DNA of 64,000 nucleotides from Arenicola marina (lineage: Eukaryota; Annelida; Polychaeta; Arenicolidae): NCBI GenBank assembly GCA_964019135.1, contig OZ025256.1, forward strand, positions 39,962,035 through 40,026,034, given 5' to 3'. Below the pieces are notes generated by a model, which was given only the letters and a program-made list of their open reading frames with translations, was not told the DNA's origin and searched no databases. Below, in pieces: positions 3,143 to 63,688 of the stretch. The first letter of the stretch is position 1. Each line of letters starts with the position of its first letter. Made by a program: the position numbers and the translations under genes.

Positions 3143-5785
3143 CTGGAAAAGGACAAACAATATATTAAACAATGAGGAATAATAAAAAGGATATACGGCA
3201 CCTGTTAGCTCATCTGGCACGCAATAAACACCGTCCGAACCGATAAGAGGGGGTCACCGTGGTTCGAACCCCACCAGTGCAATATAAACATTCCATGATT
3301 CCTTCGCAAAAAATATGGGGTTACTCTCGGATACATGGCTCCTCCCTACAATATGACGCTATAAAGGGGCAGATCCAGTGGGTTGTTGGGGGGGGGGGGG
3401 TGTGGGGGGGGGGGAGGGAGTCCGGACCCCTTTTGAGAAAGAATGCCTTTTTTCGATGCCAAATTTAGGCCATCTGACCCCCCTCCCCCCACCCCCCCCC
3501 CCCCCACAAGTTTTAAGTGGACCCCTCCCTTTTTCCCTTTTCAAATTCCTGGATCTGTCCCTGACCAGGGGCGGATATAGTATTTTGGGCCGACCGGGGG
3601 AAGTGGGCCTATATAATAGAGGGTCGGGTGAAAATAAACACAGATTTCCGGGGTGGGGGGTGCCTGGAATTTTGTCGACTTTAACATTTAACAGTCCTGC
3701 CCCCCCCCCCCCTGGATCGGCCTCTGGGTTGCATCTACAAAATGTCTACAAAATCCTCCTACCCCCCCCCCACCCCCACCCTAGATCCGCCCCTAATGAC
3801 GCCACGGCCCTCACAATGAATTCATCTGTCACGTGACTGTCGGTACATCCGGCGTAGCACGGCGAGAAATACTGGACGCCATTCGCGCCACAGACCGGTT
3901 CGTAGCTCTGGGTGGAGCATGCGCAGTGGGCGTTACAGGGGTGCGACAGGGCGGGCTCAGCCAATGGGATGTCACTGTGGAAAGGAGAGACATAATTAAA
4001 TGAGAGTAGGATTTCAATTTGTGTGAGCTTCATGATCGACACAGGCATATTTGACAAATCGACATTCGACATTGACCCAAACATTCCGACACTGAGGATC
4101 TAAAACAAGCGACACCGACACAGATTTTTTTTTTAAAACTACACTAAATGCTTCGTGAAAAATCGACATTCGGCACTGAGAAGCTTTAAACGTCCACACT
4201 GGATACTGGACCCCCCTTCCAGATTCTTAGATGTTTCTTATGATAGTGTTAAATGACCCATCTTTGCAATTCACAACTGATATTACGCGTTCGTGTTTAC
4301 TTGACGCCCACCATAGGCGTCATGTCACCCTGACCTGACCTAGTTCTGACCTGTTGCGGTATTAGTCGGTGACGACCGCTATGGGGGTCATGTCAGCTGA
4401 CCTGACCTAGTTCTGACCTGTTGTGGTATTGGACGGTGACGCCCGCCATGGCGGTCGTGTCACACCGGAACAGGAAGATGAAGGACAGCACGGCGCCGAC
4501 AGCGCACCCAGCGGCACACTGCAGAATCAAGCCCTTGACCCTGAGGCCCAGCCAGCGTGGGATCATGCCCCCCACCACCTGCCCCACGGCCGCCGCCGGC
4601 ACCACCACGCACCCTGCACCACAAGGAAAGATTAACATAACATAATACATAACATAAACATGAAACATAATATAATTCACTCAAAACAAAGCAAAAATAA
4701 TTCATGAAAAAGAATATGAGATTATTCACTAAAATGATATGGAATAATTCACTGAAGCCATGTAAAATAATTAGCTAATTCACAGTTTTCTTTAAACGAA
4801 TGCAACGCACTTATTAGTTTGGAGCAAGGATTGGAGCGTTGTCTATTACCTCTGGGTGCGAGGATATCACATAATTATATCATAAGGAGTCTGGAAGGGG
4901 GGGGGGGCGTCCGGTGTCCAGTGTCTAGTGTCGATCTTTCAAAATTCTCAGTGTCGATTTTTCACGACGGTCCGTGTCGCCTTTTGACTAAATTCAGTTC
5001 GTTTTTTTTTTTTTTAATTCAGTGTCGATGTCGCTTTTTCAGATAATCAGTGTCGGAATTTGGGGGTCAATACCGAATGTCGGTTTTTTTCAGATATGTC
5101 TGTGTCGCGTGTCTCCATTTACCCCTTCCAGACCCCTAGCATAATGCTATGCGTCGATGTCCCACCTGTTAGCATGGCGGCCTGGGCGGGCGTCACGCCG
5201 AACTGGAACTGCATTAGCTTGGGCATGAAGGTAGCAAAGGCCACGACAGTGCCAGCCTCCATGATACCTCCCAGGGTCATGAGGCCCCAGGTCGGGTTGC
5301 GCAGCAGCGACATGAAGGACCGACAGAAGCCTGCCGCCCCCTTGACCTGGACCACGGCCCCGCGGGGGTCCAGCACCCCGTCCTCGTCCTCCTTGCCCTT
5401 GTAGGCCTCAGACACGCGGTTCTGACGGTGCTTCCGCGCCTCTGAAGGTGAGTGACACCGTCAAAATGACATATAATGTTCACACCGCCAAGCCACTGAG
5501 CAATATTCATATAGATATGATGCATTATGTCCTTTAGTTTTTTGCATGGACAGAAACACAAGAAATAAAATTAAGGCGCATGTCGTGAATGACACTTTTT
5601 TACTCGCAAAAACATAAGTCTCTTATAGTCACTATATAATCAAATTGACTACGACTGCAATCTGGAATGAATGCAAAACTATATGTGATGCAACATAATA
5701 TAGTTCTAATGCGGCTACATTAAAAAGGTCATGTAATGTGTATTTCGAAACTCATCTACACGAGTGACATTCGACATGTTAATCC

Positions 5786-38810: not shown

Positions 38811-39115
38811 CTACAAAGCGGTGGTGGTCACCCGCGCAGGATCCAGCGTCCGTGACGTCACTTCCGGAGCATCTAATCCTGACGTGCCCGGCTGGCTCGG
38901 GTCGGACTGGTCGCCGGGTTGGGTGCGGCCCAGCCGGCGAAGGAATGGGAACTTGGTGGGAGGCAGGTCACCCTTCGTCCCCGCCTTCTTCATGGCTTGC
39001 TTGCCTTCCTCGTCCATCCCGAGAATTCGACGATACTGCTGCGAGACCAGTCGGTCCATCTCCGAGATGCGCATGCTCAGAGCGTCGCAGCTGTCTACGT
39101 AGCCATCCCCGGGCA
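38811..39115 (-). CDS. Polycystin terminal exon, copy 3 (proximal, likely original)
   Basis: Same protein as copies 1 and 2. One base difference seen (near 38,948) is synonymous (Phe). Joins the exon at 39,636-39,537 in phase 1 to give ...[13 protein letters not shown].... Stop TAG at 38,813-38,811. Confidence 0.82.
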
Positions 39116-42100: not shown

Positions 42101-45100
42101 TGATCAGGAGAGGAGGTGATCAGGAGAGAGGTGATCAGAAGAGGGGGTGATCAGGAGAGGGGGTGATCAGGAGAGGGTGATCAGGAGAGGGGTGATCAGA
42201 AGAGGGGTGATCAGGAGTGGGGTGATCAGGAGAGGGGGTGATCAGGAGTGGGGGTGATCAGGAGAGGGTGACCAGTAGAGGGGTGATCAGGAGAGAGGTG
42301 ATCAGAAGAGGGGGTGATCAGGAGAGGGGGTGATCAGGAGAGGGTGATCAGGAGAGGGGTGATCAGGAGAGGGGTGATCAGGAGAGGGGGTGATCAGGAG
42401 AGGGGTTGATCAGGAGAGGGTGATCAGGAGAGGGGTGATCAGGAGGGGGGTGATCACGAGGGGGTGATCACGAGGGGGTGATCAGGAGAGAGGTGATCAG
42501 GAGAAAGGCGATCAAGGAGAGAGGTGATCAGGAGAGGGGGTGATCTGGAGAGAGGGTGATCAGGAGAGGGGTTGTGAAGGAGGGGGTGATCAGGAGAGGG
42601 GGTGATCAGGAGAGGGGGTGATCAGAAGGGGTGATCAGGAGGGGGTGATCAGAAGAGGGGGTGATCAGGAGAGGAGGTGATCAGGAGAGGGAGTGATCAG
42701 GAGAGGGTGTGATCAGGAGATGGTGATCAGGAGAGGGGGTGATCAGGAGGGGTGATCAGGAGGGGGTGATCAGGAGAGGGGGTGATCAGGAGAGGGCGTG
42801 ATCAGGAGGGGGTGATCAGGAGAGAGGTTATCTGGAGAGGGGGTGATCAGGAGAGGGGGTGATCAGGAAATAGGGGGATCAGGAGGGGGTGATTAGGAGA
42901 GGGGTGATCAGGAGAGGGGTGATCAGGAGAGGGGTGATCAGGAGAGGGGTGATCAAAAGAGGGGTGATCAGGAGAGGGGGTGATCAGGAGAGGGTGATCA
43001 GGAGAGGGGTGATCAGGAGAGGGGTGATCAGGAGAGGGGGTGATCAGGAGAGGGGGTGATCAGGAAATAGGGGGATCAGGAGGGGGTGATTAGGAGAGGG
43101 GTGATCAGGAGAGGGGTGATCAGGAGAGGGGTGATCAGGAGGGGGTGATCAGGAGAGGGTGATCAGGAGAGAGGTTATCTGGGGAGGGGGCGATCAGGAG
43201 AGGGGTGATCAGGAGGGTGTGATCAGGAGGGGGTGATCAGGAGAGGGGTGATCAGAAGAGGGGTGATCAGGAGAGGGGGTGATCAGGAGAGGGGGTGATC
43301 AGGAGAGGGTGTGATCAGGAGAGGGGGTGATCAGGAAATAGGGGGATCAGGAAGGGGTGATTAGGAGAAGGGTGATCAGGAGAGGGGGTGATCAGGAGAG
43401 GGTGATCAGGAGAGGGGTGATCAGGAGAGGGGGTGATCAGGAGAGGGGGTGATCAGGAAATAGGGGGATCAGGAGGGGGTGATTAGGAGAGGGGTGATCA
43501 GGAGAGGAGGTGATCAGGAGAGAGGTGATCAGAAGAGGGGGTGATCAGGAGAGGGGGTGATCAGGAGAGGGTGATCAGGAGAGGGGTGATCAGGAGAGGG
43601 GTGATCAGGAGTGGGGTGATCAGGAGAGGGGGTGATCAGGAGAGGGGGTGATCAGGAGAGGGTGACCAGTAGAGGGGTGATCAGGAGAGAGGTGATCAGA
43701 AGAGGAGGTGATCAGGAGAGGGGGTGATCAGGAGAGGGTGACCAGGAGAGGGGTGATCAGGAGAGGGGTGATCAGGAGAGGGGGTGATCAGGAGAGGGGT
43801 TGATCAGGAGAGGGTGATCAGGAGAGGGGTGATCAGGAGGGGGGTGATCACGAGGGGGTGATCACGAGGGGGTGATCAGGAGAGAGGTGATCAGGAGAAA
43901 GGCGATCAAGGAGAGAGGTGATCAGGAGAGGGGGTGATCTGGAGAGGGGGTGATCAGAAGGGGTGATCAGGAGGGGGTGATCAGAAGAGGGGGTGATCAG
44001 GAGAGGAGGTGATCAGGAGAGGGAGTGATCAGGAGAGGGTGTGATCAGGAGATGGTGATCAGGAGAGGGGGTGATCAGGAGGGGTGATCAGGAGGGGGTG
44101 ATCAGGAGAGGGGGTGATCAGGAGAGGGCGTGATCAGGAGGGGGTGATCAGGAGAGAGGTTATCTGGAGAGGGGGTGATCAGGAGAGGGGGTGATCAGGA
44201 AATAGGGGGATCAGGAGGGGGTGATTAGGAGAGGGGTGATCAGGAGAGGGGTGATCAGGAGAGGGGTGATCAGGAGAGGGGTGATCAAAAGAGGGGTGAT
44301 CAGGAGAGGGGGTGATCAGGAGAGGGTGATCAGGAGAGGGGTGATCAGGAGAGGGGTGATCAGGAGAGGGGGTGATCAGGAGAGGGGGTGATCAGGAAAT
44401 AGTAGGATCAGGAGGGGGTGATTAGGAGAGGGGTGATCAGGAGAGGGGTGATCAGGAGAGGGGTGATCAGGAGGGAGTGATCAGGAGAGGGTGATCAGGA
44501 AAGAGGTTATCTGGGGAGGGGGCGATCAGGAGAGGGGTGATCAGGAGGGTGTGATCAGGAGGGGGTGATCAGGAGAGGGGTGATCAGAAGAGGGGTGATC
44601 AGGAGAGGGGGTGATCAGGAGAGGGGGTGATCAGGAGAGGGTGTGATCAGGAGAGGGGGTGATCAGGAAATAGGGGGATCAGGAGGGGGTGATTAGGAGA
44701 AGGGTGATCAGGAGAGGGGGTGATCAGGAGAGGGTGATCAGGAGAGGGGTGATCAGGAGAGGGGGTGATCAGGAGAGGGCGTGATCAGGAAATAGGGGGA
44801 TCAGGAGGGGGTGATTAGGAGAGGGGTGATCAGGAGAGGAGGTGATCAGGAGAGAGGTGAGCAGAAGAGGGGGTGATCAGGAGAGGGGGTGATCAGGAGA
44901 GGGTGATCAGGAGAGGGGTGATCAGGAGAGGGGTGATCAGGAGTGGGGTGATCAGGAGAGGGGACGATCAGGAGAGGGGGTGATCAGGAGAGGGTGACCA
45001 GTAGAGGGGTGATCAGGAGAGAGGTGATCAGAAGAGGGGGTGATCAGGAGAGGGGGTGATCAGGAGAGGGTGATCAGGAGAGGGGTGATCAGGAGAGGGG

Positions 45101-48100
45101 TGATCAGGAGAGGGGGTGATCAGGAGAGGGGTTGATCAGGAGAGGGTGATCAGGAGAGGGGTGATCAGGAGGGGGGTGATCACGAGGGGGTGATCACGAG
45201 GGGGTGATCAGGAGAGAGGTGATCAGGAGAAAGGCGATCAAGGAGAGAGGTGATCAGGAGAGGGGGTGATCTGGAGAGAGGGTGATCAGGAGAGGGGTTG
45301 TGAAGGAGGGGGTGATCAGGAGAGGGGGTGATCAGGAGAGGGGGTGATCAGAAGGGGTGATCAGGAGGGGGTGATCAGAAGAGGGGGTGATCAGGAGAGG
45401 AGGTGATCAGGAGAGGGAGTGATCAGGAGAGGGTGTGATCAGGAGATGGTGATCAGGAGAGGGGGTGATCAGGAGGGGTGATCAGGAGGGGGTGATCAGG
45501 AGAGGGGGTGATCAGGAGAGGGCGTGATCAGGAGGGGGTGATCAGGAGAGAGGTTATCTGGAAAGGGGGTGATCAGGAGAGGGGGTGATCAGGAAATAGG
45601 GGGATCAGGAGGGGGTGATTAGGAGAGGGGTGATCAGGAGAGGGGTGATCAGGAGAGGGGTGATCAGGAGAGGGGTGATCAAAAGAGGGGTGATCAGGAG
45701 AGGGGGTGATCAGGAGAGGGTGATCAGGAGAGGGGTGATCAGGAGAGGGGTGATCAGGAGAGGGGGTGATCAGGAGAGGGGGTGATCAGGAAATAGGGGG
45801 ATCAGGAGGGGGTGATTAGGAGAGGGGTGATCAGGAGAGGGGTGATCAGGAGAGGGGTGATCAGGAGAGAGGTGATCAGGAGAGGGGGTGATCAGGAAAT
45901 AGGGGGATTAGGAGAGGGGGTGATCAGGAAATAGGGTGATCAGGAGAGGGGGTGATCAGGAGGGAGTGATCAGGAGAGGGGTGATCAGGCGAGGGGTGAT
46001 CAGGAGAGGGGGTGATCAGGAGAGGGGGTGATCAGGAAATAGGGGGATTAGGAGAGGGGTGATCAGGAGCGGAGGGGTGATCAGGAGAGGGGGTGATCAG
46101 GAAATAGGGTGATCAGGAGAGGGGGTGATCAGGAGGGAGTGATCAGGCGAGGGGTGATCAGCAGAGGGGGTGATCAGGAGAGGGGGTGATCAGGAGAGGG
46201 GGTGATCAGGAAATAGGGTGATCAGGAGAGGGGGTGATCAGGAGGGAGTAATCAGGAGAGGGGTGATCAGGCGAGGGGTGATCAGGAGAGGTGGTGATCA
46301 GGAGAGGGGGTGATCAGGAAATAGGGGGATTAGGAGAGTGGTGATCAGGAGCGGAGGGGTGATCAGGAGATGGGGTGATCAGGAGAGGGTGATCAGGAGA
46401 GAGGTGATCAGGAGAGGGGTGATCAGGTGGGGGTGATCAGGCAGGGGTGATCAGGAGAGAGGTGATCAGGAGAGGGGCGATCAAGGAGAGAGGTGATCAG
46501 GAGAGGGGGTGATCTGGAGAGAGGGTGATCAGGAGAGGGGGTGATCAGGAGGGGGTGATCAGGAGGCGGTGATCAGGAGGGGGTGATCAGGAGAAGGGGT
46601 GATCAGGAGAGGGGGTGATCGGGAGGGGGTGATCAGGAGGGCGTGATCAGGAGAGGGGGTGATCAGGAGAGGAGGTGATCAGGAGAGAGGTGATCAGAAG
46701 AGGGGTGATCAGGAAAGGGGGTGATCAGGAGAGGGGGTAATCAGGAGAGGGGGTTATCAAGAGAGGGGTGATCAGGAGTTGGTGATCAGGAGAGGGGGTG
46801 ATCAGGAGAGGGGGTAATCAGGAGAGGGGGTAAGCAGGAGAGGAGTGATCAGGAGAGGGTGTGATCAGGAGAGGGCGTGATCAGGAGAGAGGGTGATCAA
46901 GAGAGGGTGTGATCAGGAGAGGGTGACCAGGAGAGGGGTGATCAGGAGAGAGGTGATCAGAAGAGGGGGTGATCAGGAGAGGGGGTGATCAGGAGAGGGA
47001 TGATCAGGAGAGAGGTGATCAGAAGAGGGGGTGATCAGGAGGGGGGTGATCAGGAGGGGGTGATGAGGAGGGGGTGACCAGGAGAGGGGTGATCAGGAGA
47101 GGGGGTGATCAGGAGAGGGTGTGATCAGGAGAGGGTGACCAGGAGAGGGGTGATCAGGAGAGAGGTGATCAGAAGAGGGGGTGATCAGGAGAGGGGGTGA
47201 TCAGGAGAGGGATGATCAGGAGAGAGGTGATCAGAAGAGGGGGTGATCAGGAGGGGGGTGATCAGGAGGGGGTGATGAGGAGGGGGTGATCAGGAGAGAG
47301 GTGATCAGGAGAAAGGCGATCAAGGAGAGAGGTGATCAGGAGAGGGGGTGATCTGGAGGGAGGGTGATCCGGAGAGGGGTTGTGAAGGAGGGGGTGATCA
47401 GGAGAGGGGGTGATCAGGAGAGGGGGTGATCAGGAGGGGGTGATCAGGAGGGGGTAATCAGAAGAGGGGGTGATCAGGAGAGGAGGTGATCCGGAGAGGG
47501 AGTGATCAGGAGGGAGTGATCAGGAGAGGGGTGATCAGGAGAGGGTGTGATCAGGAGATGGTGATCAGGAGAGCGGGTGATCAGGAGGGGTGATCAGGAG
47601 GGGGTGATCAGGAGAGGGGGTGATCAGGAGAGGGGGTGATCAGGTGGGGGTGATCAGGAGAGAGGTTATCTGGAGAGGGGGTGATCAGGAGAGGGGGTGA
47701 TCAGGAAATAGGGGGATCAGGAGGGGGTGATCAGGAGAGGGGTGATCAGGAGAGGGGTGATCAGAAAAGGGGTGATCAGAAGAGGGGTGATCAGGAGGGG
47801 GGGTGATCAGGAGAGGGTGATCAGGAGAGGGGTGATCAGGAGAGGGGTGATCAGGAGAGGGGGTGATCAGGAGAGGGGGTGATCAGGAAATAGGGGGATC
47901 AGGAGGGGGTGATTAGGAGAGGGGTGATCAGGGGGGGGTGATCAGGAGAGGGGTGATCAGGAGAGAGGTGATCAGGAGAGGGGGTGATCAGGAGAGGGGG
48001 TGATCAGGAGGGAGTGATCAGGAGAGGGGTGATCAGGCGAGGGGTGATCAGGAGAGGGGGTGATCAGGAGAGGGGTGATCAGGAAATAGGGGGATTAGGA

Positions 48101-51100
48101 GAGGGGTGATCAGGAGAGGAGGGGTGATCAGGAGAGGGGGTGATCAGGAGAGATTGATCAGGAGAGAGGTGATCAGGAGAGAGGTGATCAGGGGAGGGGC
48201 GATCAAGGAGAGAGGTGATCAGGAGAGGGGGTGATCTGGAGAGAGGGTGATCAGGAGAGGGGGTGATCAGTAGGGGGTGATCAGGAGGCGGTGATCAGGT
48301 GGGGGTGATCAGGAGAGGGGGTGATCAGGAGAGGGGGTGATCAGTAGGGGGTGATCAGGAGGGCGTGATCAGGAGAGGGGGTGATCAGGAGAGGAGGTGA
48401 TCAGGAGAGAGGTGATCAGAAGAGGGGTGATCAGGAAAGGGGGTGATCAGGAGAGGGGGTGATCAGGAGAGGGGGTGATCAAGAGAGGGGTGATCAGGAG
48501 TTGGTGATTAGGAGAGGGGGTGATCAGGAGAGGGGGTAATCAGGAGAGGGGGTAATCAGGAGAGGGGTGATCAGGAGAGGGTGTGATCAGGAGAGGGCGT
48601 GATCAGGAGAGAGGGTGATCAGGAGGGGGTGATCAGGAGGGGGTGATCAGGAGAGAGGTTATCTGGAGAGGGAGCGTTAAGCGGGGGGGTGATCAGGAGG
48701 GTGTGATCAGGAGGGGGTGATCAGGAAAGGGGGTGATCAGGAGGGGGTGATTAGGAGAGGGGTGATCAGAAGAGGGGTGATCAGGAGAGGGGGTGATCAG
48801 GAGAGGGGATGATAAGAAGCTGGTCGATCAGAAGTGGGTGTGATCGGGAGGGAGGTGATCAGGAGAGAGGGTGATCAGGAGAGGGGGTGATCAGGAGAGG
48901 GGGTGATCAGGAGAGGGTGATCAGGAGAGGGGGTGATCAGGAGGGGTGATCAGGAGAGGGGTGATCAGGAGAGAGGGGGATCAGGAGAAGGGTGATCAGG
49001 AGAGGGGTGATCAGGAGAGGGTGTGATCAGGAGGGGTCATCAGGAGGGGGTGATCAGGAGGGGTGATCAGGAAGGGTGATCAGAAGAGGGTGATCAGGAG
49101 AGGGTGTGATCAGGAGAGAGTGATCAGGAGAGGGGGTGATCAGAAGAGGGGGTTATCAAGAGAGGGGGTGATCAGAAGAGGGTGATCAGGAGAGGGGGTG
49201 ATCAGGAGAGGGGGTGATCAGGAAATAGGGGGATTAGGAGAGTGGTGATCAGGAGCGGAGGGGTGATCAGGAGATGGGGTGATCAGGAGAGGGTGATCAG
49301 GAGAGAGGTGATCAGGAGAGGGGTGATCAGGTGGGGGTGATCAGGCAGGGGTGATCAGGAGAGAGGTGATCAGGAGAGGGGCGATCAAGGAGAGAGGTGA
49401 TCAGGAGAGGGCGTGATCAGGAGAGAGGGTGATCAAGAGAGGGTGTGATCAGGAGAGGGTGACCAGGAGAGGGGTGATCAGGAGAGAGGTGATCAGAAGA
49501 GGGGGTGATCAGGAGAGGGGGTGATCAGGAGAGGGATGATCAGGAGAGAGGTGATCAGAAGAGGGGGTGATCAGGAGGGGGGTGATCAGGAGGGGGTGAT
49601 GAGGAGGGGGTGACCAGGAGAGGGGTGATCAGGAGAGGGGGTGATCAGGAGAGGGTGTGATCAGGAGAGGGTGACCAGGAGAGGGGTGATCAGGAGAGAG
49701 GTGATCAGAAGAGGGGGTGATCAGGAGAGGGGGTGATCAGGAGAGGGATGATCAGGAGAGAGGTGATCAGAAGAGGGGGTGATCAGGAGGGGGGTGATCA
49801 GGAGGGGGTGATGAGGAGGGGGTGATCAGGAGAGAGGTGATCAGGAGAAAGGCGATCAAGGAGAGAGGTGATCAGGAGAGGGGGTGATCTGGAGGGAGGG
49901 TGATCCGGAGAGGGGTTGTGAAGGAGGGGGTGATCAGGAGAGGGGGTGATCAGGAGAGGGGGTGATCAGGAGGGGGTGATCAGGAGGGGGTAATCAGAAG
50001 AGGGGGTGATCAGGAGAGGAGGTGATCCGGAGAGGGAGTGATCAGGAGGGAGTGATCAGGAGAGGGGTGATCAGGAGAGGGTGTGATCAGGAGATGGTGA
50101 TCAGGAGAGCGGGTGATCAGGAGGGGTGATCAGGAGGGGGTGATCAGGAGAGGGGGTGATCAGGAGAGGGGGTGATCAGGTGGGGGTGATCAGGAGAGAG
50201 GTTATCTGGAGAGGGGGTGATCAGGAGAGGGGGTGATCAGGAAATAGGGGGATCAGGAGGGGGTGATCAGGAGAGGGGTGATCAGGAGAGGGGTGATCAG
50301 AAAAGGGGTGATCAGAAGAGGGGTGATCAGGAGGGGGGGTGATCAGGAGAGGGTGATCAGGAGAGGGGTGATCAGGAGAGGGGTGATCAGGAGAGGGGGT
50401 GATCAGGAGAGGGGGTGATCAGGAAATAGGGGGATCAGGAGGGGGTGATTAGGAGAGGGGTGATCAGGGGGGGGTGATCAGGAGAGGGGTGATCAGGAGA
50501 GAGGTGATCAGGAGAGGGGGTGATCAGGAGAGGGGGTGATCAGGAGGGAGTGATCAGGAGAGGGGTGATCAGGCGAGGGGTGATCAGGAGAGGGGGTGAT
50601 CAGGAGAGGGGTGATCAGGAAATAGGGGGATTAGGAGAGGGGTGATCAGGAGAGGAGGGGTGATCAGGAGAGGGGGTGATCAGGAGAGATTGATCAGGAG
50701 AGAGGTGATCAGGAGAGAGGTGATCAGGGGAGGGGCGATCAAGGAGAGAGGTGATCAGGAGAGGGGGTGATCTGGAGAGAGGGTGATCAGGAGAGGGGGT
50801 GATCAGTAGGGGGTGATCAGGAGGCGGTGATCAGGTGGGGGTGATCAGGAGAGGGGGTGATCAGGAGAGGGGGTGATCAGTAGGGGGTGATCAGGAGGGC
50901 GTGATCAGGAGAGGGGGTGATCAGGAGAGGAGGTGATCAGGAGAGAGGTGATCAGAAGAGGGGTGATCAGGAAAGGGGGTGATCAGGAGAGGGGGTGATC
51001 AGGAGAGGGGGTGATCAAGAGAGGGGTGATCAGGAGTTGGTGATTAGGAGAGGGGGTGATCAGGAGAGGGGGTAATCAGGAGAGGGGGTAATCAGGAGAG

Positions 51101-54100
51101 GGGTGATCAGGAGAGGGTGTGATCAGGAGAGGGCGTGATCAGGAGAGAGGGTGATCAGGAGGGGGTGATCAGGAGGGGGTGATCAGGAGAGAGGTTATCT
51201 GGAGAGGGAGCGTTAAGCGGGGGGGTGATCAGGAGGGTGTGATCAGGAGGGGGTGATCAGGAAAGGGGGTGATCAGGAGGGGGTGATTAGGAGAGGGGTG
51301 ATCAGAAGAGGGGTGATCAGGAGAGGGGGTGATCAGGAGAGGGGATGATAAGAAGCTGGTCGATCAGAAGTGGGTGTGATCGGGAGGGAGGTGATCAGGA
51401 GAGAGGGTGATCAGGAGAGGGGGTGATCAGGAGAGGGGGTGATCAGGAGAGGGTGATCAGGAGAGGGGGTGATCAGGAGGGGTGATCAGGAGAGGGGTGA
51501 TCAGGAGAGAGGGGGATCAGGAGAAGGGTGATCAGGAGAGGGGTGATCAGGAGAGGGTGTGATCAGGAGGGGTCATCAGGAGGGGGTGATCAGGAGGGGT
51601 GATCAGGAAGGGTGATCAGAAGAGGGTGATCAGGAGAGGGTGTGATCAGGAGAGAGTGATCAGGAGAGGGGGTGATCAGAAGAGGGGGTTATCAAGAGAG
51701 GGGGTGATCAGAAGAGGGTGATCAGGAGAGGGGGTGATCAGGAGAGGGGGTGATCAGGAGGGGTGATCAGGAGAGGGGTGATCAGGAGAAGGGTGATCAG
51801 GAGAGGGGTGATCAGGAGAGGGTGTGATCAGGAGGGGGTGATCAGGAGAGGGTGATCAGGAGAGAGGTTATCTGGAGAGGGGGCGATCAGAAGAGGGTGA
51901 TCAGGAGAGGGGTTATCTGGAGAGGGGGTGATCAGAAGAGGGGTTATCAAGAGAGGGGGTGATCAGAAGAGGGTGATCAGGAGAGGGGGTGATCAGGAGA
52001 GGGGGTGATCAGGAGGGGTGATCAGGAGAGGGGTGATCAGGAGAGGGGGTGATCAGGAGAGGGGTGATCAGGAGAAGGGTGATCAGGAGAGGGGTGATCA
52101 GGAGAGGGTGTGATCAGGAGAGGGGGTGATCAGGAGAGGGGGTGATCAGGAGAGGGGTGATCAGGAGAAGGGTGATCAGGAGAGGGGTGATCAGGAGAGG
52201 GTGTGATCAGGAGAGGGGGTGATCAGGAGAGGGTGATCAGGAGAGGGGGTGATCAGGAGAGGGGGTGATCAGGAGAGGGTGATCAGGAGAGGGGGTGATC
52301 AGGAGGGGGTGATCAGGAGAGGGGGTGATCAGGAGAGGGGGTGATCAGGAGAGGGTGATCAGGAGAGGGGGTGATCAGGAGGGGGTGATCAGGAGAGGGG
52401 GTGATCAGGAGAGGGGTGATCAGGAGAAGGGTGATCAGGAGAGGGGTGATCAGGAGAGGGTGTGATCAGGAGAGGGGGTGATCAGGAGAGGGTGATCAGG
52501 AGAGGGGGTGATCAGGAGGGGGTGATCAGGAGAGGGGGTGATCAGGAGGGGGTGGTCAGGAGAGGGGGTGATCAGGAGAGGGGAGATCAGGAGAGGGGAG
52601 ATCAGGAGAGGGGGTGATCAGGAGAGGGGGTGAACAGGAGATGGGGTGATAAGAAGATGGTCGATCAGAAGAGGGGGTGATCAGGAGAGGGGTGATCAGG
52701 AAAGGGGGTGATCAGGACGGGGTGATCAGGAGGGGTGATCAGGAGAGGGGGGGATCAGGAGAGAGGTGATCAGGAGAGGGGATGATCAGGAGAAAGGTGA
52801 TCAGGAGAGGGGGTGAGCAGGAGAGGGGATGATCAGGAGAGGGGGATCAGGAGAGGGTGATCAGGAGAGGGGTGATCAGGAGGGGTGTGATCAGGAGGGG
52901 GTGATCAGGAGAGGGTGATCAGGAGAGAGGTTATCTGGAGAGCGGGCGATCAGGAGAGGGGTGATCAGGAGGGTGTGATCAGGAGGGGGTGATCAGGAGA
53001 GTGGGTGATCTGGAGGGTGTGATCAGGAAGGGGTGATCAGGAGAGGGGTGATCAGGAGAGGGGGTGATCAGGAGATGGGATGATAAGAAGATGGTCGATC
53101 AGAAGAGGGGGTGATCAGGAGAGGGGTGATCAGGAAAGGGGGTGATCAGGAGAGAGGGTGATCAGGCGAGTGGTGATCAGGAGAGGGGTGATCAGGAAAG
53201 GGGGTGATCAGGAGGGGGTGATCAGGAGGGGTGATCAGGAGAGGGGGTGATCAGGAGAGAGGTGATCAGGAGAGGGGTGATCAGGCGAGGGGGTGATCAG
53301 AAGAGGGGGTGATCAGGAGAGGGGTGATCAGGAAAGGGGGTGATCAGTAGGGGGTGATCAGTAGGGGTGATCAGGAGAGGGGGTGATCAGGAGAGAGGTG
53401 ATCAGGAGAGAGTTGAGCAGGAGAGGGGGTGATCAGGAGAGAGGTGATCAGGAGAGGGGGTGATCAGGAGAGAGGTGATCAGGAGAGGGGATGATGAAGA
53501 AAAGATGTGAGTCACTGAACAAGTAAAGGTGTGAGTCACTGAACAAGTAACGGTGTGAGTCACTGAACAAGTAAAGGTGTGAGTCACTGAACAAGTAAAG
53601 GTGTGAGTCACTGAACAAGTAAAGGTGTGAGTCACTGAACAAGTAAAGGTGTGAGTCACTGAACAAGTAAAGGTGTGAGTCACTGAACAAGTAAAGGTGT
53701 GAGTCACTGAACAAGTAAAGATGTGAGTCACTGAACAAGTAAAGGTGTGAGTCACTGAACAAGTAAAGGTGTGAGTCACTGAACAAGTAAAGATGTGAGT
53801 CACTGAACAAGTAAATATGTGAGTCACTGAACAAGTAAAGGTGTGAGTCACTGAACAAGTAAAGGTGTGAGTCACTGAACAAGTAAATATGTGAGTCACT
53901 GAACAAGTAAAGGTGTGAGTCACTGAACAAGTAAAGATGTGAGTCACTGAACAAGTAAAGATGTGAGTCACTGAACAAGTAAAGGTGTGAGTCATTGATT
54001 GAACCCAGGCGTGAGTAATTGTCACTGGACCAATAAACACATTATGACGCAAAGGTTCGTGGGTCACAAAACAGCTAAAGTGAAGTAGGAAAGTAAGGCA

Positions 54101-57100: not shown

Positions 57101-60100
57101 ATCTGTTGGATTCTCTCGTCATACCCACTGCGTCACATCGGTCTGAGGGCGGCGGGCACAAGAGGGTTAAATAGTTGTTATATTCTCATTATCATATGTA
57201 CATATATGTCATCAGCTCATGTCCTTTTATCATTGTCGGTCAATAGCACTTGTGCTAATGTTTATTGTTGACTTTTACATACCGACGTTAAATAAAACTT
57301 GATCTTATCCTAACTTATCTTATTTTATCTTATCTTGAAGCAGAGGGTGAAGAGGAGATATTTCCCCGGTTGGAGCGGTGGCCATCAGAGGGCTAAGTTA
57401 AAGGGTAAAAGTACTATTACTATCTGTTGGAATAGCAACGGCCAGATGATTACACCGATTGGCAAAAGTGATATATTCTCACTATTACAGCGACGGGGAC
57501 ATAAATTGATTGCTGTTTGAAGGCTGCCAGGGAAGTCAAAGACAAATGTTGAGACAGCGGGCACCAGTGGGTTAAAATATGGGAAAAATTCTACTCTGTT
57601 GGAGCTGCGGGTACCAGATGGTTAATGTAAGAGAGTTAATATAAGAAATGTCTACTCCACGTCGGAGTGGCGAGCACCAGAGGGTTAAGGTATAGGGCAA
57701 TTTCTACTCTCTCTTAGGGCAGCGGGCACCAGAGGTTTAAAGTGAAGGTGAGTACACTATATATTGTTGGGTATAAATAGGAACAGATATGCGCCCATGG
57801 CGAATTGATCGGACAATTAGTAATATCACATACAACTTATTCAATTAACATTAAACAACTTTGCTTCAGACACGCTTCAAGCTTGACGCATGTCAGAGAT
57901 GGAAAGTGAGAAGATCGGGGAGGAGAGTGACCCCCGGGCTCACCTGGCTTCACCCTGAGCTGCCTCAGCCTGAGGGGTCCCACGCGGTAGTTGGAGCCGT
58001 CCCCCAAGTACGCTCTCTGCCGCTTGGTGGTCGGCGCCCCGCTGTAGTGTTTCATGAAGAAGATGGCCGGGATGGTATGGACTTTGAGCCACTGCCAGTA
58101 CGAGAAGCCGTCGTTAACTGACTTCATCATGAGGGGGGTTGAGCCGCCCGCCACCTGATCACAGATGGATTGGTTCATGCGGAAGATGAGGTCGTCCTTG
58201 CTGCCCCAGGCAATGAAGCAGATGAGGAGGAGGAAGAGGAAATAGAAGGTCGTCTCCCACAGCATGCTCCACATTCGCTTCTCGTACTCTCGTTTCTGCC
58301 GAGATTTCTCCAGAGACTTCTTGGAAGGCGGCTTGGGTCCGCTACCAGCGAGTGACATCGCCATCATATCTGCCAATATATATATAAAACCAAAGTGTTG
58401 GTTATTAGGACACGGGTGTGCTCATGAAATCTGAAACGGGCCAATTAAGGAAATGAGGTCTGTATGAAGCACCCCGCATAGGTCTGTATGAAGCACCCCA
58501 CATAGGTCTGTATGAAACACCCCACATAGGTCTGTATGAAGCACCCCACATAGGTCTGTATGAAACACCCCACATAGGTCTGTATGAAACACCCCACATA
58601 GGTCTGTATGAAACACCCCACATAGGTCTGTATGAAGCACCCCACATAGGCAGATGCCAGGGCGCGAACCCATGACGTGTGGATCTGCAGCTTAATAGTT
58701 AGTTAAAGAGGATCCCTCATCGTGAAAAAGAAACCGTTTCGGATCATGATGAAAACTGTGCATTAACCCAGGCAAAACAAGCACTGGCATTCTGTCAACA
58801 TTGTTACACAATAAAGTAATATCTGACAAACTAAATGAAAAAAGACTTGTCGCAACAAAAAACGGCATGATCTGTCATGAACATCAATGTCTCTGTCAAC
58901 ATAACCTCATTAACTCTCTCAACATAGACACCATTATCTTTGTCATCATAGACACCATTATCTTTGTCATCATAGACACCATTATCTTTGTCATCATCTT
59001 GTCATCATAGACACCATTATCTTTGTCATCATAGACACCATTATCTTTGTCATCATAGACACCACTATCTTTGTCATCATAGACACCATTATCTTTGTCA
59101 TCATAGACACCATTATCTTTGTCATCATAGACACCATTATCTTTGTCATCGTAGACACCATTATCTTGGCCATCATAGACACCATTATTTTGTCATCATG
59201 GACACCATTATCTTTGTCATCATAGACACCATTATCTTCGTCATCATAGACACCATTATCTTTGTCATCATAGACGCCATTATCTTTGCCATCATAGACA
59301 CCATAATCTTTGTCATCATAGACACCATTATCTGTCAACATAGACACCATAATCTCTGTCAACATAAACAAGAACAAGGTCAACAACAGAAACTGGCCCC
59401 TCGGGACGATGAATGAAAAGTGCCCCAGATTATGTTGGTTGGTTGTATATCCAGGACGCTTTAACCACTTTTGGTCATATCGCGTCAATGGGTAAAGGCA
59501 GGGAGAGTGGAGCCATGTCCCCGTGGGGTAACCCACTACTCTTTGCAAAGAAGGACATGGTATCTTTATCCTGCGACCACACAGACATGACTACTGCGGG
59601 GCGCGAACCACCGATCCACGTGCCGTTGGGCTCTCAGGTGGCTACAGCACTCAAGGCGAGCGCTTTACCCGACTGAGCTACCGGGCGCCCCCTCCCCCCG
59701 GCCCCCGCCCCCCCCCCCCGCAGATTAGTTGTCAGGGCCCGGATTCGACCCTCGAACACACATACTGATCTGCGGATTAGTGCTCCAACCACTACACCAG
59801 GGAGCCCCCATCTGTGGGGCAGTGGGGACCGAGACGAGAGCTCACCGATGTGGATCAGACTGTGTTCCAGCATCTCCTCGTCAGCGGCCGGCGTCGCGTT
59901 CTTTGCGGAGTCATCGTCATCGTCGTCATTTTCCAGCGTCTTGAAGAGGATCGCCATGGCGACAGCTACCATCACCACCTGAGGCGTGAAACAATGACAC
60001 CGACGTCACGACACGAAATTGACGCAATGACACGACAACGACACCGACGTTATGATACATCAATGACGCAATGACACGACATTGACACCGACATTGACAC

Positions 60101-63100
60101 CGTCACGATATCGAGGTACCTTGACTGGCTGTGTGACCAGAATGGTCAGGAAGAAGGAGGAGTCTAGAAGGGGGGCGTGGGGGAGGGTTGGGAATGGGAG
60201 AAGGGGTGGGGGTGGGTGGGAGAAGGGGGTGGGGTGTGTGGGAGAAGGGGTGGGGGGTGTTGGGGAGAAGGGGTGTGGGAGGGTGGGAGAAGGGGTGGGG
60301 TGGGTGGGAGAAGGGGTGGGGGTGGGTGGGAGAAGGGGTGGGGTGGGTGGGAGAAGGGGTGGGGTGGGTGGGAGAAGGGGGTGGGGTGGGTGGGAGAAGG
60401 GGTGGGGTGGGTGGAAGAAGGGGTGGGGTGGGTGGGAGAAGGGGTGGGGTGGGTGGGAGAAGGGGTGGGGGTGGGTAGAGGGTGTCGAGGTACCTTGACT
60501 GGCTGTATCACCAGAGTTGTCAGGAAGAGAGAGGAGCCTAGAAAGGGGGGGGGGGGGTGAGGGGGGGGTGGGGAGAAAGGGCGCGTGGGGGTGGGGAGTG
60601 TCGAGGTACCTTGACAGGCTGTGTCACCAGAATGGTCAGGAAGAGGGAGGAGTCTAGAAAGTGGGGTTGAGGGTTGGGATGGGAGAAGGGGGTGGGGTGG
60701 GTGGGAGAAGGGGTGGGGTGGGTGGGGAGAAGGGGTGGGTGTGGGTGGGAGAAGGGGTGGGGTGGGTGGGAGAAGGGGTGGGGGTGGGTGGGAGAAGGGG
60801 TGGGGTGGGTGGAAGAAGGGGTGGGGTGGGTGGAAGAAGGGGGTGGGGTGGGTGCGAGAAGGGGTGGGGTGTGTGGGAGAAGGGGTGGGGTGTGTGGGAG
60901 AAGGGGTGGGGGTGGGTGGGAGAAGGGGTGGGGTGGGTGGGAGAAGGGGTGGGGTGGGTGGGAGAAGGGGTGGGGTGGGTGGGAGAAGGGGTGGGGTGGG
61001 TGGGAGAAGGGGTGGGGGGGGTGGAAGAAGGGGTGGGGTGGGTGCGAGAAGGGGTGGGGTGGGTGGAAGAAGGGGTGGGGTGGGTGGGAGAAGGGGTGGG
61101 GTGGGTGGGAGAAGGGGTGGGGTGGGTGGGAGAAGGGGTGGGGGTGGGTAGAGGGTGTCGAGGTACCTTGACTGGCTGTATCACCAGAGTTGTCAGGAAG
61201 AGAGAGGAGCCTAGAAAGGAGGGGGGGGGTGAGGGGGGGGTGGGAGAAGGGGCGCGTGGGGGTGGGGAGTGTCGAGGTACCTTGACTGGCTGTATGACGA
61301 CGATGGACTCCAAAGTGGCTAGGAAGAGGGAGGACAGCCACTTCTCGGAGATCTCCTTGCCCCACTCCAGGCTGTAGAAGAGGACGAAGGCCGCGGAGAC
61401 GGCCGTGGTGGCCAGCGCCACGGTCCAGGCCACGTAGATCGTCCACCAGGGGAACCAATACTTCTTCTTCCACCAGCGTTTCCTCCGCTTTCGACTGGCC
61501 TGTTGGGCGGCATCGACGCGCTCCAGGTAAGCGATCAGCTCGCTTTGCTTGGTCTCATCATAGGGCTCGCCTCCGTAACCCGTGATGGCGAAGATCTCTT
61601 TGTCCTGCGCGATTTTCTGCGACCGCTCCTCCGCCAGATCGTCTTCATCCATCCAGCCCTTGGGCGCCGCCTTGCGGAAGATTGTCACGATGACGGTATT
61701 GATGGGGACGACGATGAGGGCGCTGAAGACGGACAATAGGATCGTCTGGGCGCTGAGGATGATGGGGCCGATGTGGATGGACACGTCCCCCTCCGTGGGT
61801 CCCCCCTCGTCGCGGTAGAACATGGCGTTGACGACCATGGTGCTAAAGAGCAGGGTAACGATGCATGTGAGGCGCTGGAGGCGGGTGAAGGAGCTCTTGG
61901 AGGGGCGCGCGGCCACCGACAGCCACAGGTGGTCGTCGAAGAGCTTGTGGCGCGCCTTGGTGAAGAACAGGTGGTTGAAGCTCAGGACCTCGTCCGTGTT
62001 GCCGACCGGCAGGATGCGGTCGACCTGTCCGTCATCCTCGTCCACCGCCAGCCAACGGCTGCACAGGAAGAAGTACCTGAGGTACAATGGGCACAGAAGA
62101 GACAGACATAATTAATGGGATGTTGGTGCACACAAGGGTTGAAACGAGCCAAGGAGCCTCTCGGAACGATGAAAGATGAAACCATATTAAGTGCCCGGGC
62201 CCGATTCGAAGCCAGAACCTATTGCACAAAACCAATACCACAGGGAGACCCCCCGAACGAAGGAAGAGGATTTCCCTAAATTATGGTGAACATTATCTGT
62301 ACATTCTACAAATGGGTTTCTGAATGGATAGTTACTCTTCTGATTCATATTGTCCTGGTTAGCTTCATACAGACGATTGGCATACCATTAGATACGTGAA
62401 TAATACAGAGCGAAAAGGCCCAAACAGTTAAAGTTAAAGTTGAAGCTAAAATTAAAGTTGAAGTGACAGTTGAAGTGAAATTTAAAGTGAAATTTAAGGT
62501 GAAATTTAAAGTGAAATTTAAGGTGAAATTTAAGGTGAAATTTAAAGTTAAAGTTAAAGTGAAAGTTAAAGTAAAAGTTAAATTAGCTAAAGTAAAAGTA
62601 AAAGTAAAAGTTACAGTTACAGTTACAGTTACAGTTAAAGTTAACGCGTATCGCCTGCATCGGTTCCACACCGGTGCGGCTGGCCAATGAGAGAGCCATG
62701 CTGAGCGTGCCAGGGCGGCAGGGGGAGGACCTTACTTCTTGTGGCTGGCGAGGTCCTCAATGAGCACCTTGTCCAGGTACCACCCCGCGTGGTCGCTCTT
62801 CCCCGAGTTGTCGTGCCACAGCCTCATGAAGCTCAGCGACCCCAGGGAATGCTCCGTGGACATGATGAACGTCCGGATGGAGCCCCGCGAGAAATGCTGC
62901 AACGCAACGTGATTGGACGTTTTACTGACTTGACGTCAGTTGTGTTGAATAGCGCATTGGCCTATTACGTTATAGAGTAGGGTTGGAATATGTCCATCGG
63001 TCGGACACATCATGTGGGATACACCCCCCCCCCCCTCCTGCTGCCACTTGCCCTCACCTACGCCTCCCCTCCCTCTTCACCTTCTTTTTGCCATCGTGTC

Positions 63101-63688
63101 TGCCCCCTCCGCCCCTCCACCTCCTCCACCCCCTCCACCCCCTCCACCCTCCGCCCCTCCACCCCCTCCACCCCCTCCACCCCCTCCACCCCTCCACCCT
63201 CTCCCCCTCCACCCCCTCCACCCCTCCACCCTCCCCCCTCCGCCCCTTCACCCCCTCTACCCCTCCCCCCTCCGCCCCTTCACCCCCTCTACCCCCCTCC
63301 ACCCCTTCTCACCTTTTTCTTGCCATCGTCGATGGCCCGGACCCCCATATTCACCCCGCACCCCTCCACCCCTCCTCACCTTTTTCTTGCCGTCGTCCAG
63401 GGCCCGGACCCCCGTGCCCCCCCTCCCCTCATCCCCCTCCGTCCCTCCACCCCCTCCACCCCTCCATCCTCCACCCTCCACCCCACCACCCCACCACCCC
63501 CTCCACCCCCCACTCACCTTTTTCTTGCCGTCGTCCATGGCCCGGACCCCCGTGTCGCTGCCATCGCCAGTGAGTACGAAGAAGACTTTGGACTTAGTGC
63601 CGGCGTTCTTCCTCAGACCAGTATACACCGACACCTTGTAGTGGGCCCGGTGCGCCGACAGATTGCCGATCAGGGGGGTCACTCCCCA
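38811..63688 (-). CDS. Polycystin-1-like channel with PLAT domain, C-terminal half (5' part off the window)
   Basis: Exons 63688-63518, 62896-62736, 62076-61281, 59978-59846, 58369-57944, 56953-56577, 56280-55965, 55292-54959, 54341-54245, 39636-39537 and 39115-38811 join in perfect phase into 3,216 bases, 1,071 residues plus stop. Domains in order: PLAT/LH2 (about residues 18-112; [27 protein letters not shown]), the polycystin-1-type helix block with [20 protein letters not shown], the polycystin extracellular TOP domain (about 470-700; [18 protein letters not shown], YIxDL-like [14 protein letters not shown]), S2-S4 with [10 protein letters not shown], pore [14 protein letters not shown]6 and a short C-terminal helix. 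PLAT in front of the channel places it in the PKD1 branch rather than PKD2. Such proteins act as membrane cation channel subunits, often ciliary or on sperm. The N-terminal ectodomain and GAIN/GPS part are not in the window. Alternative terminal exon pairs lie downstream. Confidence 0.92.
39537..39636 (-). CDS. Polycystin penultimate exon, copy 3 (proximal)
   Basis: Encodes [20 protein letters not shown] then [13 protein letters not shown]. It is the first acceptor downstream of the last-helix exon (54,341-54,245). Joining GTAYHD to IRMKPD gives the spacing to the EYxVMEF motif expected for polycystin-1-like channels. Differs from copies 1 and 2 by one amino acid and two silent changes. Confidence 0.83.
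39655..53496. repeat. Minisatellite of nearly 14 kb, unit TGATCAGGAGAGGGG(G)
   Basis: Roughly 850-900 degenerate copies of a 14-17-base unit, each with a palindromic TGATCA. It fills most of the polycystin intron between 54,244 and 39,637. Large-scale structure is visible. The marker ACCAGTAGAG occurs at 42,271, 43,665 and 44,997, and GTTGTGAAGGAGG at 42,571 and 45,297 (offset 2,726 both times), indicating a tripled block of about 1.39 kb whose middle copy lost 62 bases. GGAGCGTTAAGCGGG at 48,671 and 51,207, GTTGTGAAGG at 47,379 and 49,915, and GATCAAGAGAGGGTG at 46,895 and 49,431 are all exactly 2,536 apart, indicating a recent indel-free 2.5-kb duplication. No coding frame persists. Confidence 0.95.
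53505..53993. repeat. 24-bp minisatellite with an AP-1-type site per unit
   Basis: About 20 near-identical copies of GTGTGAGTCACTGAACAAGT + AAAG and a final degenerate one. Each contains TGAGTCA, the AP-1/TRE consensus. Period 24 keeps frames open (repeating VTHTFTCS on the minus strand), but this is repeat, not gene. Lies about 260 bases downstream of the polycystin last-helix exon. Confidence 0.95.
54245..54341 (-). CDS. Polycystin exon: last helix (S6)
   Basis: Acceptor CTCTCATTACAG, donor GAT|GTACGG (phase 0). Encodes [20 protein letters not shown] then [12 protein letters not shown], the S6 helix and NMFL motif of polycystins. The donor is not strong; reading through it adds 22 codons before TAA at 54,178-54,176. 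Confidence 0.85.
54959..55292 (-). CDS. Polycystin exon: S4, S5 and pore
   Basis: Acceptor ATCATTTCTAG, donor GACAG|GTGATT (phase 2). S4 [20 protein letters not shown] with positive charges, S5 [19 protein letters not shown], pore helix and filter region [20 protein letters not shown]. Confidence 0.93.
55965..56280 (-). CDS. Polycystin exon: end of TOP domain, S2 and S3
   Basis: Acceptor TTCGCCGCCAG, donor CCGG|GTGAGC (phase 1). Begins [17 protein letters not shown], the conserved EFPA(T/I)GG motif before S2, then [20 protein letters not shown] and [19 protein letters not shown]. Confidence 0.93.
56577..56953 (-). CDS. Polycystin exon: extracellular TOP domain
   Basis: Acceptor GCGGCTCTCAG, donor GCACAG|GTCAGC (phase 0). 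Encodes [53 protein letters not shown] and [20 protein letters not shown], the signature three-leaf core of polycystin TOP domains, with potential N-glycosylation sites (NYTT, NYTA). Its acceptor region is duplicated at 57,117-57,170. Confidence 0.93.
56990..57750. repeat. Degenerate intronic repeat (GCGGGCACCAGAGGGTTAA type)
   Basis: Ten or so diverged copies of TTGGAGCGGCGGGCACCAGA followed by GGGTTAAAG, spaced about 50-90 bases. The motif matches the intron side of the TOP-exon acceptor, suggesting the array grew out of that splice-site region. A LINE-tail-like stretch (TTAAATAAAACTTGATCTTA then CTTAT repeats) is embedded at about 57,285-57,340. Confidence 0.6.
57117..57170 (-). repeat. 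Duplicate of the TOP-exon acceptor region
   Basis: On the plus strand CATACCCACTGCGTCACATC + GGTCTGAGGGCGGCGGGCAC repeats the exon boundary at 56,930-56,985 (CATACCCACCGCGTCACATC + GGTCTGAGAGCCGCGGGCAA) about 190 bases away. The copy keeps CCGCCCTCAG followed by the first ~27 exon bases (RCDAVGMT on translation), so a second acceptor exists upstream of the real exon; downstream its frame soon stops. Confidence 0.75.
57944..58369 (-). CDS. Polycystin exon: linker, helix before the TOP domain, TOP start
   Basis: Acceptor ATATATTGGCAG, donor CCAG|GTGAGC (phase 1). Encodes a basic cytoplasmic linker ([20 protein letters not shown]), helix [17 protein letters not shown] and the start of the TOP domain ending [12 protein letters not shown]. 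Confidence 0.92.
58445..58650. repeat. 24-bp minisatellite (AGGTCTGTATGAAGCACCCC)
   Basis: Eight tandem copies of AGGTCTGTATGAARCACCCC + ACAT immediately upstream (minus sense) of the exon at 58,369. Followed at 58,655-58,690 by a fragment (GCCAGGGCGCGAACCCATGA) related to the 72-bp tRNA-like unit. Confidence 0.92.
58915..59360. repeat. 24-bp minisatellite (GACACCATTATCTTTGTCAT)
   Basis: About eighteen copies of GACACCATTATCTTTGTCAT + CATA, some shortened, in the same polycystin intron. Open frames through it are a consequence of the period. Confidence 0.92.
59390..59812 (-). repeat. tRNA-derived SINE family 2, split by a family-1 SINE
   Basis: Head at 59,812-59,725 on the minus strand: GGGGGCTCCCTGGTGTAGTG, then GTTGGAGCAC and a B-box-like GGGTCGAATCC. 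The body CATTCATCGTCCCGAGGGG appears at 59,420-59,390, beyond the inserted family-1 element. A second, uninterrupted copy at about 62,255-62,135 shows the same order without the gap. Confidence 0.55.
59429..59693 (-). repeat. tRNA-derived SINE family 1
   Basis: Near-complete minus-strand copy: head GGTAGCTCAGTCGGGTAAAG, box-B-like GGTTCGCGCCCCG, body with CCTTCTTTGCAAAGAGTAGT and tail AACCAACCAACATAA. Apparently nested in a family-2 SINE. Confidence 0.85.
59846..59978 (-). CDS. Polycystin exon: helix after QPVK and acidic linker
   Basis: Acceptor TTTCACGCCTCAG, donor ATCG|GTGAGC (phase 1). Encodes [20 protein letters not shown] and an acidic linker ending EHSLIHI, directly continuing IQPVK of the preceding exon as in other polycystins (QPVKv...). 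Confidence 0.9.
60100..61235 (-). repeat. Array of exon-end copies and 21-bp G/C-rich minisatellite
   Basis: The intron after the exon ending at 61,281 contains four copies of that exon's 3' end (about 61,218-61,157, 60,660-60,599, 60,541-60,481 and 60,170-60,112), with CCAGTCAAG|GTACCTCGA kept in all but the third (60,660-60,599), which reads CCTGTCAAG. Between them are blocks of a 21-bp unit GTGGGAGAAGGGGTGGGGTG + G (plus strand). Each copy has a pyrimidine tract and TCTAG before 44 bases of exon-like sequence (translating SLFLT..LV.QPVK in the parental frame) and then the donor. Spliced in from phase 0, each would meet TGA at its sixth codon. Confidence 0.9.
61281..62076 (-). CDS. Polycystin exon: end of PLAT and first helix block
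   Basis: The largest exon, 796 bp. Acceptor TGTACCTCAG, donor GTCAAG|GTACCT (phase 0). Starts [20 protein letters not shown] (end of PLAT), then [40 protein letters not shown], an acidic/basic cytoplasmic loop ([12 protein letters not shown]) and two helices ending [17 protein letters not shown], all in the order seen in polycystin-1 proteins. Confidence 0.94.
62420..62645. repeat. Low-complexity (GTTAAA)/(GTGAAATTTAAA) repeat
   Basis: A tandem run of 6- and 12-base units in the intron between the PLAT exons. Open frames of Lys/Val repeats here are artefacts of periodicity. Confidence 0.9.
62736..62896 (-). CDS. Polycystin exon: PLAT domain, second part
   Basis: Acceptor CGTTGCGTTGCAG, donor AAGAA|GTAAGG (phase 2). 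Encodes [19 protein letters not shown] then [20 protein letters not shown] and [10 protein letters not shown], the diagnostic RLWHDNSG...WYL.+v.v.D motif of PLAT domains. Confidence 0.95.
63050..63500 (-). repeat. C-rich repeat with extra copies of the PLAT exon 3' end
   Basis: CCCCTCCAC-type repeats enclose further copies of the end of the 63,688-63,518 exon: near 63,375-63,415 (GTCCGGGCCCTGGACGACGG then AAGAAAAAG|GTGAGG), near 63,310-63,350 (AAGAAAAAG|GTGAGA) and a weak one near 63,065-63,095 (GATGGCAAAAAGAAG|GTGAAG). Each retains a usable-looking donor. Confidence 0.85.
63518..63688 (-). CDS. Polycystin exon: PLAT domain, first part
   Basis: Acceptor CATATGTTTGCAG, donor AAAAAG|GTGAGT, phase 0 at both ends (57 codons). 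Encodes [20 protein letters not shown] then [19 protein letters not shown] and [17 protein letters not shown], the beta-strand start of PLAT. Preceded by at least one exon beyond the right edge. Confidence 0.93.

Follow-up and report, generated by a model that had tools for sequence, protein, structure and literature searches.

Introduction

In amphioxus, minisatellite-like tandem copies of exon-intron boundaries known as mirages occupy the adjoining intron of Adh3, the globin genes BflGb6 and BflGb9, TnC and PGBD5; many of the copies have AG or GT, and they are reported to leave splicing undisturbed (PMC3087553, PMC3902484). Here we describe a comparable array in a window of 64,000 nucleotides of DNA from the annelid Arenicola marina (contig OZ025256.1, positions 39,962,035 to 40,026,034), where the end of exon E8 of a minus-strand gene near the right-hand border recurs four times in the intron that follows it. 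The gene, which we take from the window's translation to be a member of the polycystin-1 family, is called gene A below. An original prediction made from the letters of the window had offered two accounts of the copies, a splicing brake built of identical, frame-breaking 44-nt micro-exons and a minisatellite that is neutral and had a splice site as its seed. Our analysis favors the second, and the array is very probably a mirage-type minisatellite of an annelid gene, grown across a splice site and most likely neutral.

Boundary repeats have been reported in human genes as well. The minisatellite of IFI6 (6-16) is reported to give rise to three mRNAs from donors in its repeat units (PMC4526556), and tandem repeats at the exon-intron boundaries of young human paralogs can reportedly yield new introns (PMC2812944). 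The Arenicola array resembles that of IFI6 in that its repeat units each bear a donor at an exon-intron boundary; it differs in that the extra donors of IFI6 are reported in mRNA, whereas ours are predicted from sequence and only one of the four possible extensions is open and in frame. The IFI6 minisatellite is said to have been described with several splice donors by Turri et al. in 1995.

Four copies of an exon end in the E8 intron

Exon E8 (61281..62076, minus strand), an open reading frame (ORF) with boundaries set by comparison with a paralog, ends in phase 0 with the residues ...IQPVK, and the junction with its intron reads ...ATACAGCCAGTCAAG|GTACCTCGAC. The presumed authentic 5' splice site, GTACCT, lies at 61275..61280, and exon E9 (59846..59978) begins at 59978 on the same strand, which makes the intron 1302 nt long. 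The predicted fourfold recurrence of the exon end with its donor was found in this intron as four 44-nt minus-strand copies at offsets of +114, +671, +787 and +1161 from the authentic boundary: A1 (61167..61210, with TCTAG ahead at 61215-61211 and GTACCT behind), B1 (60610..60653, with TCTAG ahead), A2 (60494..60537, the same sequence as A1) and B2 (60120..60163, with TTCTAG ahead, GTACCTCGATATCG behind and then other short repeats at 59991-60102). TTCTAG stands directly ahead of all four and GTACCTCGA directly behind them; the pyrimidine tract and TCTAG in front and the GTACCT donor behind, as originally described, are present in 4/4 copies. The acceptor positions first given were 3 to 8 nt off.

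The four copies are not a product of chance. When the exon end was searched against the genome together with the first 81 intron bases, it returned A1 (E 6.2e-14), B1 (E 2.5e-33), A2 (E 6.2e-14) and one place in a paralog, B2 having no separate listing, and a 38-nt donor-spanning scan of the intron recovered all four copies and none in the reversed intron. Contrary to the original description they are not identical, and they fall into two types: A1 and A2 differ at 0/44 positions, B1 and B2 at 3/44, and the two types from each other at 6 or 7/44. By eye, 12 parental nucleotides (GAG TCC ATC GTC) are gone from all four.

The order A1-B1-A2-B2 reflects the duplication of one block. Two minus-strand higher-order units, of 671 nt (60610..61280) and 490 nt (60120..60609), share two longest aligned blocks that are 94% (430 columns) and 90% (361 columns) identical. 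The repeat also contains a 21-nt minisatellite of 45 copies (60195..61149, minus strand), C-rich on the sense strand and G-rich on the plus strand, which is broken by B1 and A2, and 26 of the window's 33 plus-strand G-quadruplex (G4)-type motifs fall inside 60120-61281. Nearly all of the intron is repeat, 64 of 66 probes having another copy inside it. Because A1 equals A2, the sequences suggest recent turnover.

These are the features of a mirage. In all four copies the repeated unit spans the splice site, joining the exon end to GTACCTCGA, and the copies are tandem in the intron beside the true boundary, though interspersed with the 21-nt unit and not strictly head to tail. Our array shares with those of amphioxus the placement of tandem boundary copies in an intron next to the true boundary, and differs in that the host is an annelid and not a cephalochordate, that a C-rich minisatellite separates the copies, that each copy is preceded by TCTAG and that they have a higher-order arrangement. 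A further difference is that one array following its exon in this genome, described below, has about 109 units.

We infer that a minisatellite grew in the intron after E8 and carried along the last bases of the exon with its 5' splice site. Repeated misalignment of DNA, helped by the C-rich/G-rich repeat, would have produced exon-end types A and B, and a later duplication of the block formed by A, minisatellite and B would have given four copies. The copies would most likely be removed with the intron in splicing, and the protein would be preserved by the first donor, which would continue to link E8 to E9. Rare use of a decoy would cause a frameshift and a stop, and use of the A1 donor alone would insert 38 codons.

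Exon-end copies in other polycystin genes

Similar polycystin exons were found at 18 places in a search of the organism's own 867-Mb genome, which is rich in tandem repeats, six of these loci being near-identical to each other. Copies of the E8 end are present at 3/18 loci, the window's own among them. The other 15 have no copy at 29/44 matches or better in a stretch of up to 1.5 kb downstream, with the probe lying off a clear GT donor in 8/15. A close paralog on the same chromosome (gene B; C9, 3.95 Mb), with 87% protein identity over 68 residues, holds one copy of the E8 end in the same intron. It matches at 30/40 positions, has no TCTAG and reads AAC|GTACCT, with the -1 base changed, and is on these features a decayed copy.

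Other exon ends of these genes are also repeated. The end of exon E6 of gene A (63518..63688, minus strand; CGGCAAGAAAAAG|GTGAG) recurs three times downstream. The exon-like part of these copies ends at 63380, 63313 and 63081, with matches at 35, 34 and 26 of 38 positions, and gene B has 10 copies of the E6 end and five of the E11 end. Striking arrays were seen in a third polycystin, gene C (C10; L014 at 1-435, 695-1546 and 2174-3186, with L031 and L032), in which two successive introns begin with arrays of exon end plus donor, one of 54-nt units repeated 15.8 times and the other of 49-nt units repeated 109.4 times. The 54-nt array shows plain decay, the +1 G being lost in 3/14 copies. These arrays are preceded by another with a 41-nt unit, which is at least 9774 nt long (about 238 units), occupies all 9001 nt of L032 at a 96% match and runs on into L014. 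Its unit is similar to an exon end, GCCATGTG|GTAAG, in a paralog (L033), and by this likeness it too may have been seeded from an exon.

Several further observations were made on this family. One exon-start copy (acceptor side of E12, CCTCAG|ACCGATGTGA) lies at 57142 on the minus strand, 189 nt upstream of the real E12 start. At 58075-58141, gene A reads through E10/E11 in one frame, and its paralog (L007) appears to have an intron there, so that an intron appears to have been lost or gained between these close relatives. An interspersed SINE-like element (59437-59686) has two copies in the paralog region, 81% and 86% alike. On C11 (28.48-28.70 Mb; L019-L024), six near-identical polycystin exons, three per strand, may have arisen by recent amplification as inverted pairs.

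Recurrence at unrelated exons and the intron background

Copied exon ends are also found outside the polycystin family. In a gene that we presume from the window's translations to be SLCO-like, a 67-nt unit is repeated 2.4 times at 4302..4463 (minus strand; boundary set by eye), the exon end ...CCACAACAG|GTCAGAACTAGG having its last exon base at 4418 and the copy its last base at 4351. In a myosin sample made up of the best 30 of 77 listed myosin-head matches, with some genes represented more than once, a script scan flagged six donor sides and no acceptor side. Four exon-end copies were accepted by eye (L044, L051, L064 and L065), one flag (L039) was rejected as intronic on reading by eye and one (L061) was neither accepted nor rejected. 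C-rich tracts separate the copies in L051 and L065. At L051, from about 0 to 400 nt after the match, nine units of about 36 nt each consist of a C-tract, CACAG, the 12-nt exon-end copy TGTCATCATCAG and GTACGTA; judged by this composition, L051 is an independent array of acceptor, micro-exon-like segment and donor, and the closest structural parallel to the window array.

There is a hint of imbalance between the two sides of exons, ends being copied more than starts. The counts for ends versus starts are 4/30 vs 0/30 in myosins (one-sided Fisher P = 0.056; starts from the script scan) and 5/24 vs 2/22 in genes A and B (P = 0.25). Pooled they are 9/54 vs 2/52 (P = 0.03), or 8/53 vs 2/52 (P = 0.049) without the original finding, in a sample of 54 ends and 52 starts that is small and partly post hoc. 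Gene C was kept out of these counts, having been found for being striking. Exon E3, which has no clear donor and whose acceptor region is partly duplicated in gene B, stands outside them; one gene B E5 acceptor was dropped, and the gene B E8 copy came from separate scans.

The rate of copying within introns sets these numbers in context. Random 38-nt intron probes were copied in the same intron in 220/596 cases in gene A (37%) and 198/580 in gene B (34%), or, with complex probes only, in 93/405 and 99/425 (23%), and 256/1320 probes (19%) around the myosin exons were copied. Since 37%, 34% and 19% of interior probes have copies, the rate for exon ends is close to the intron background or lower, while exon starts seem to be spared, although the numbers are weak. 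In the polycystin A and B and myosin samples, exon edges showed no excess of copies over intron interiors. The neutral account of the array fits these findings, namely like arrays at unrelated exons, copies of 37% and 34% of intron probes and no enrichment at exon edges.

Measured from match edges and not from mapped exon edges, repeats cover 25% of the 50 nt that follow the myosin matches and 3% of the 50 nt that precede them, and they occur there at 8/30 and 2/30 loci, respectively (one-sided Fisher P = 0.04). The first and last 140 nt of 20 polycystin introns did not differ in this way (Wilcoxon P = 0.86). A few introns had pointed to a fixed interval of about 145 nt free of repeats ahead of acceptors. 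This was rejected, since in some cases repeats come to within 12, 15 and 21 nt of the acceptor.

Low variability of the donor GT

One observation weighs against pure neutrality. In 11 exon-end arrays the columns of the donor GT vary in 2 of 22 cases when 8.6 are expected (P = 0.0008), in a test that treats columns as independent, is post hoc and draws on related copies in arrays picked for containing donors, one donor being placed from a paralog. Some arrays have 2 to 5 units, and about six units of the 41-nt array (243 counted) are doubled, L014 and L032 overlapping by 240 bases. The donor GT position shows the lowest variability among 28 neighbouring offsets. The comparison with non-CpG columns (167/501 vary) gives a Fisher P of 0.011, and that of donor GT pairs with other GT pairs (2/11 vs 14/27) a P of 0.059. 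Within the window, TTCTAG and GTACCT are kept in all four copies. Simple neutrality would not predict this constancy, which we regard as a hint and not a result.

The constancy could be read as selection acting on arrays of duplicated 5' splice sites, which would be widespread in the genome. The decoys would then serve as a donor sink or reserve that tunes the splicing of the preceding exon, and the four acceptor-bearing copies of the window would be an extreme form of such arrays. We consider this unlikely.

Splicing potential of the copies

Splice sites were scored with a weight matrix built on the mapped sites of gene A and its paralog (22 acceptors and 24 donors). The decoy acceptors score 3.7 to 5.0, around the real E9 acceptor (4.0) and within the range of authentic acceptors (1.5 to 13.7, median 6.3). 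All decoy donors score 6.1, equal to the parent donor, which itself exceeds 10 of 23 other mapped donors, in an authentic range of 0.2 to 11.8. Because the acceptor and donor scores fall in the authentic range, the decoy sites are predicted to be usable, as is the parent donor, and aberrant or regulated use of them may occur.

Such sites are what the proposed splicing brake calls for, in which regulated inclusion of the copies would bring in a stop, nonsense-mediated decay (NMD) and less channel output. Each copy joins an acceptor-like site to a donor and a premature stop. With TCTAG taken as the acceptor, all four are 44 nt long, not a multiple of three, end at GTACCT and give TGA at the sixth codon in the frame of the phase-0 junction, exactly as predicted. 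If all copies were spliced in, the introns between them would measure 70, 513, 72, 330 and 141 nt, and the lower variability of donor GT columns in arrays of this kind also counts in favor of the brake. An acceptor-like site, a short out-of-frame segment, a donor and an early stop are features of poison (NMD) exons; the window copies differ from these in arising as a repeat array and in having no intact counterpart in the paralog. Furthermore, the copies vary, and the one identical pair stems from block duplication. The putative poison exon is not conserved in related genes, as the single paralog copy lacks TCTAG, reads AAC|GT at its donor and is decayed in appearance, and 15 of the 18 polycystin loci have no copy within the distance and threshold given above, 8 of those 15 with a probe off a clear GT donor. 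Among the myosin arrays, a pyrimidine tract precedes the copies at L051 and L065 and is absent at L044 and L064 (by eye, not scored). With the form of the sequence and the donor-GT hint as its support, set against copies that are not identical, a decayed paralog copy and presence at 3/18 loci, the brake now looks improbable.

Another use of the decoys, which the original prediction did not consider, needs no decoy acceptor. In this scheme the copies would act as alternative 5' splice sites in the manner of IFI6, for which three mRNAs from repeat-unit donors are reported (PMC4526556). The decoy donors tie with the parent at 6.1, and the segment from the parent donor to the A1 donor (61280-61167) is 114 nt long, in frame and free of stops, so that plain extension would add 38 codons; the ORF through E8 stays open to 60654. 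However, an in-frame A1 has a one-in-three chance of arising, and A1 is the only donor of the four with an open in-frame extension. Extensions to B1 (671 nt) and A2 (787 nt) are out of frame, and that to B2 (1161 nt), though in frame by length, is not open because a stop is met on the way to the B1 donor. The 38-codon insert would, moreover, land in a hydrophobic segment that presumably lies in the membrane. Alternative donor use therefore seems to us a slim prospect, no better than the brake. That the copies were once translated, as the remains of a coding exon end that was duplicated or used alternatively, is very improbable: they do translate to peptides in the parent frame, and most differences between A and the parent are synonymous by eye, yet constraint on the parent alone could explain this, four parental codons are gone from every copy, no further coding sequence was spotted by eye beside the copies, and like arrays arise at unrelated exons.

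Mirages in an annelid genome

Growth of a mirage-type minisatellite, our preferred reading, has partial parallels in related genes and related animals. Intron 21 of human PKD1 contains a polypyrimidine repeat described as pyrimidine-rich and G4-prone (PMC11696556). The window repeat has this composition too and likewise lies in an intron of the polycystin-1 family; it differs in that no exon-end copy figures in the available part of the PKD1 description; the likeness is one of kind and we claim no homology of the introns. Earthworm metallothionein genes are reported to have intronic minisatellites together with fourth-exon duplications absent from transcripts (PMC12783039); these are likewise intronic minisatellites of an annelid, and the portion consulted does not describe arrays of exon end plus donor. 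A literature search on minisatellite tandem duplication in annelid introns found none, and we make no further claim as to whether annelid mirages are unpublished.

The mirage structure, as described in the available reports on lancelets, would thus extend to an annelid, in which it recurs often and in some arrays with many units. Genomes of this kind offer natural tests of how the spliceosome settles on a single donor when many similar ones are at hand, as well as of how introns grow or are gained by tandem duplication. For the single feature of the window the answer is modest, as it looks like the growth of a repeat and not a designed switch.

Other repeats and mitochondrial gene order

Two other repeated regions stand out in the window. 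A single array of a 16-nt repeat, with about 910 copies, extends over 13.8 kb (39675-53495), and a tandem segmental duplication at about 31200-39700 comprises three near-identical sets of ORFs, one roughly every 3.3 kb.

The gene order of a mitochondrial contig (C762) was read by combining tRNAs called by ARAGORN, minus three hits that overlapped genes or lay on the other strand, with proteins assigned by eye and rRNAs placed from gaps, the last 442 bases falling outside the reading. On its evidence we rejected a cephalochordate origin of the genome, which the likeness to mirages had raised. All genes read lie on one strand; the first part runs cox1-N-cox2-D-atp8-Y-G-cox3-Q-nad6-cob-W-atp6-R-H-nad5-F-E-P-T-nad4L-nad4, and the rest, after nad4, continues C-M-rRNAs-L-A-S-L-nad1-I-K-nad3-S-nad2. 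We take this order to be the annelid ground pattern.

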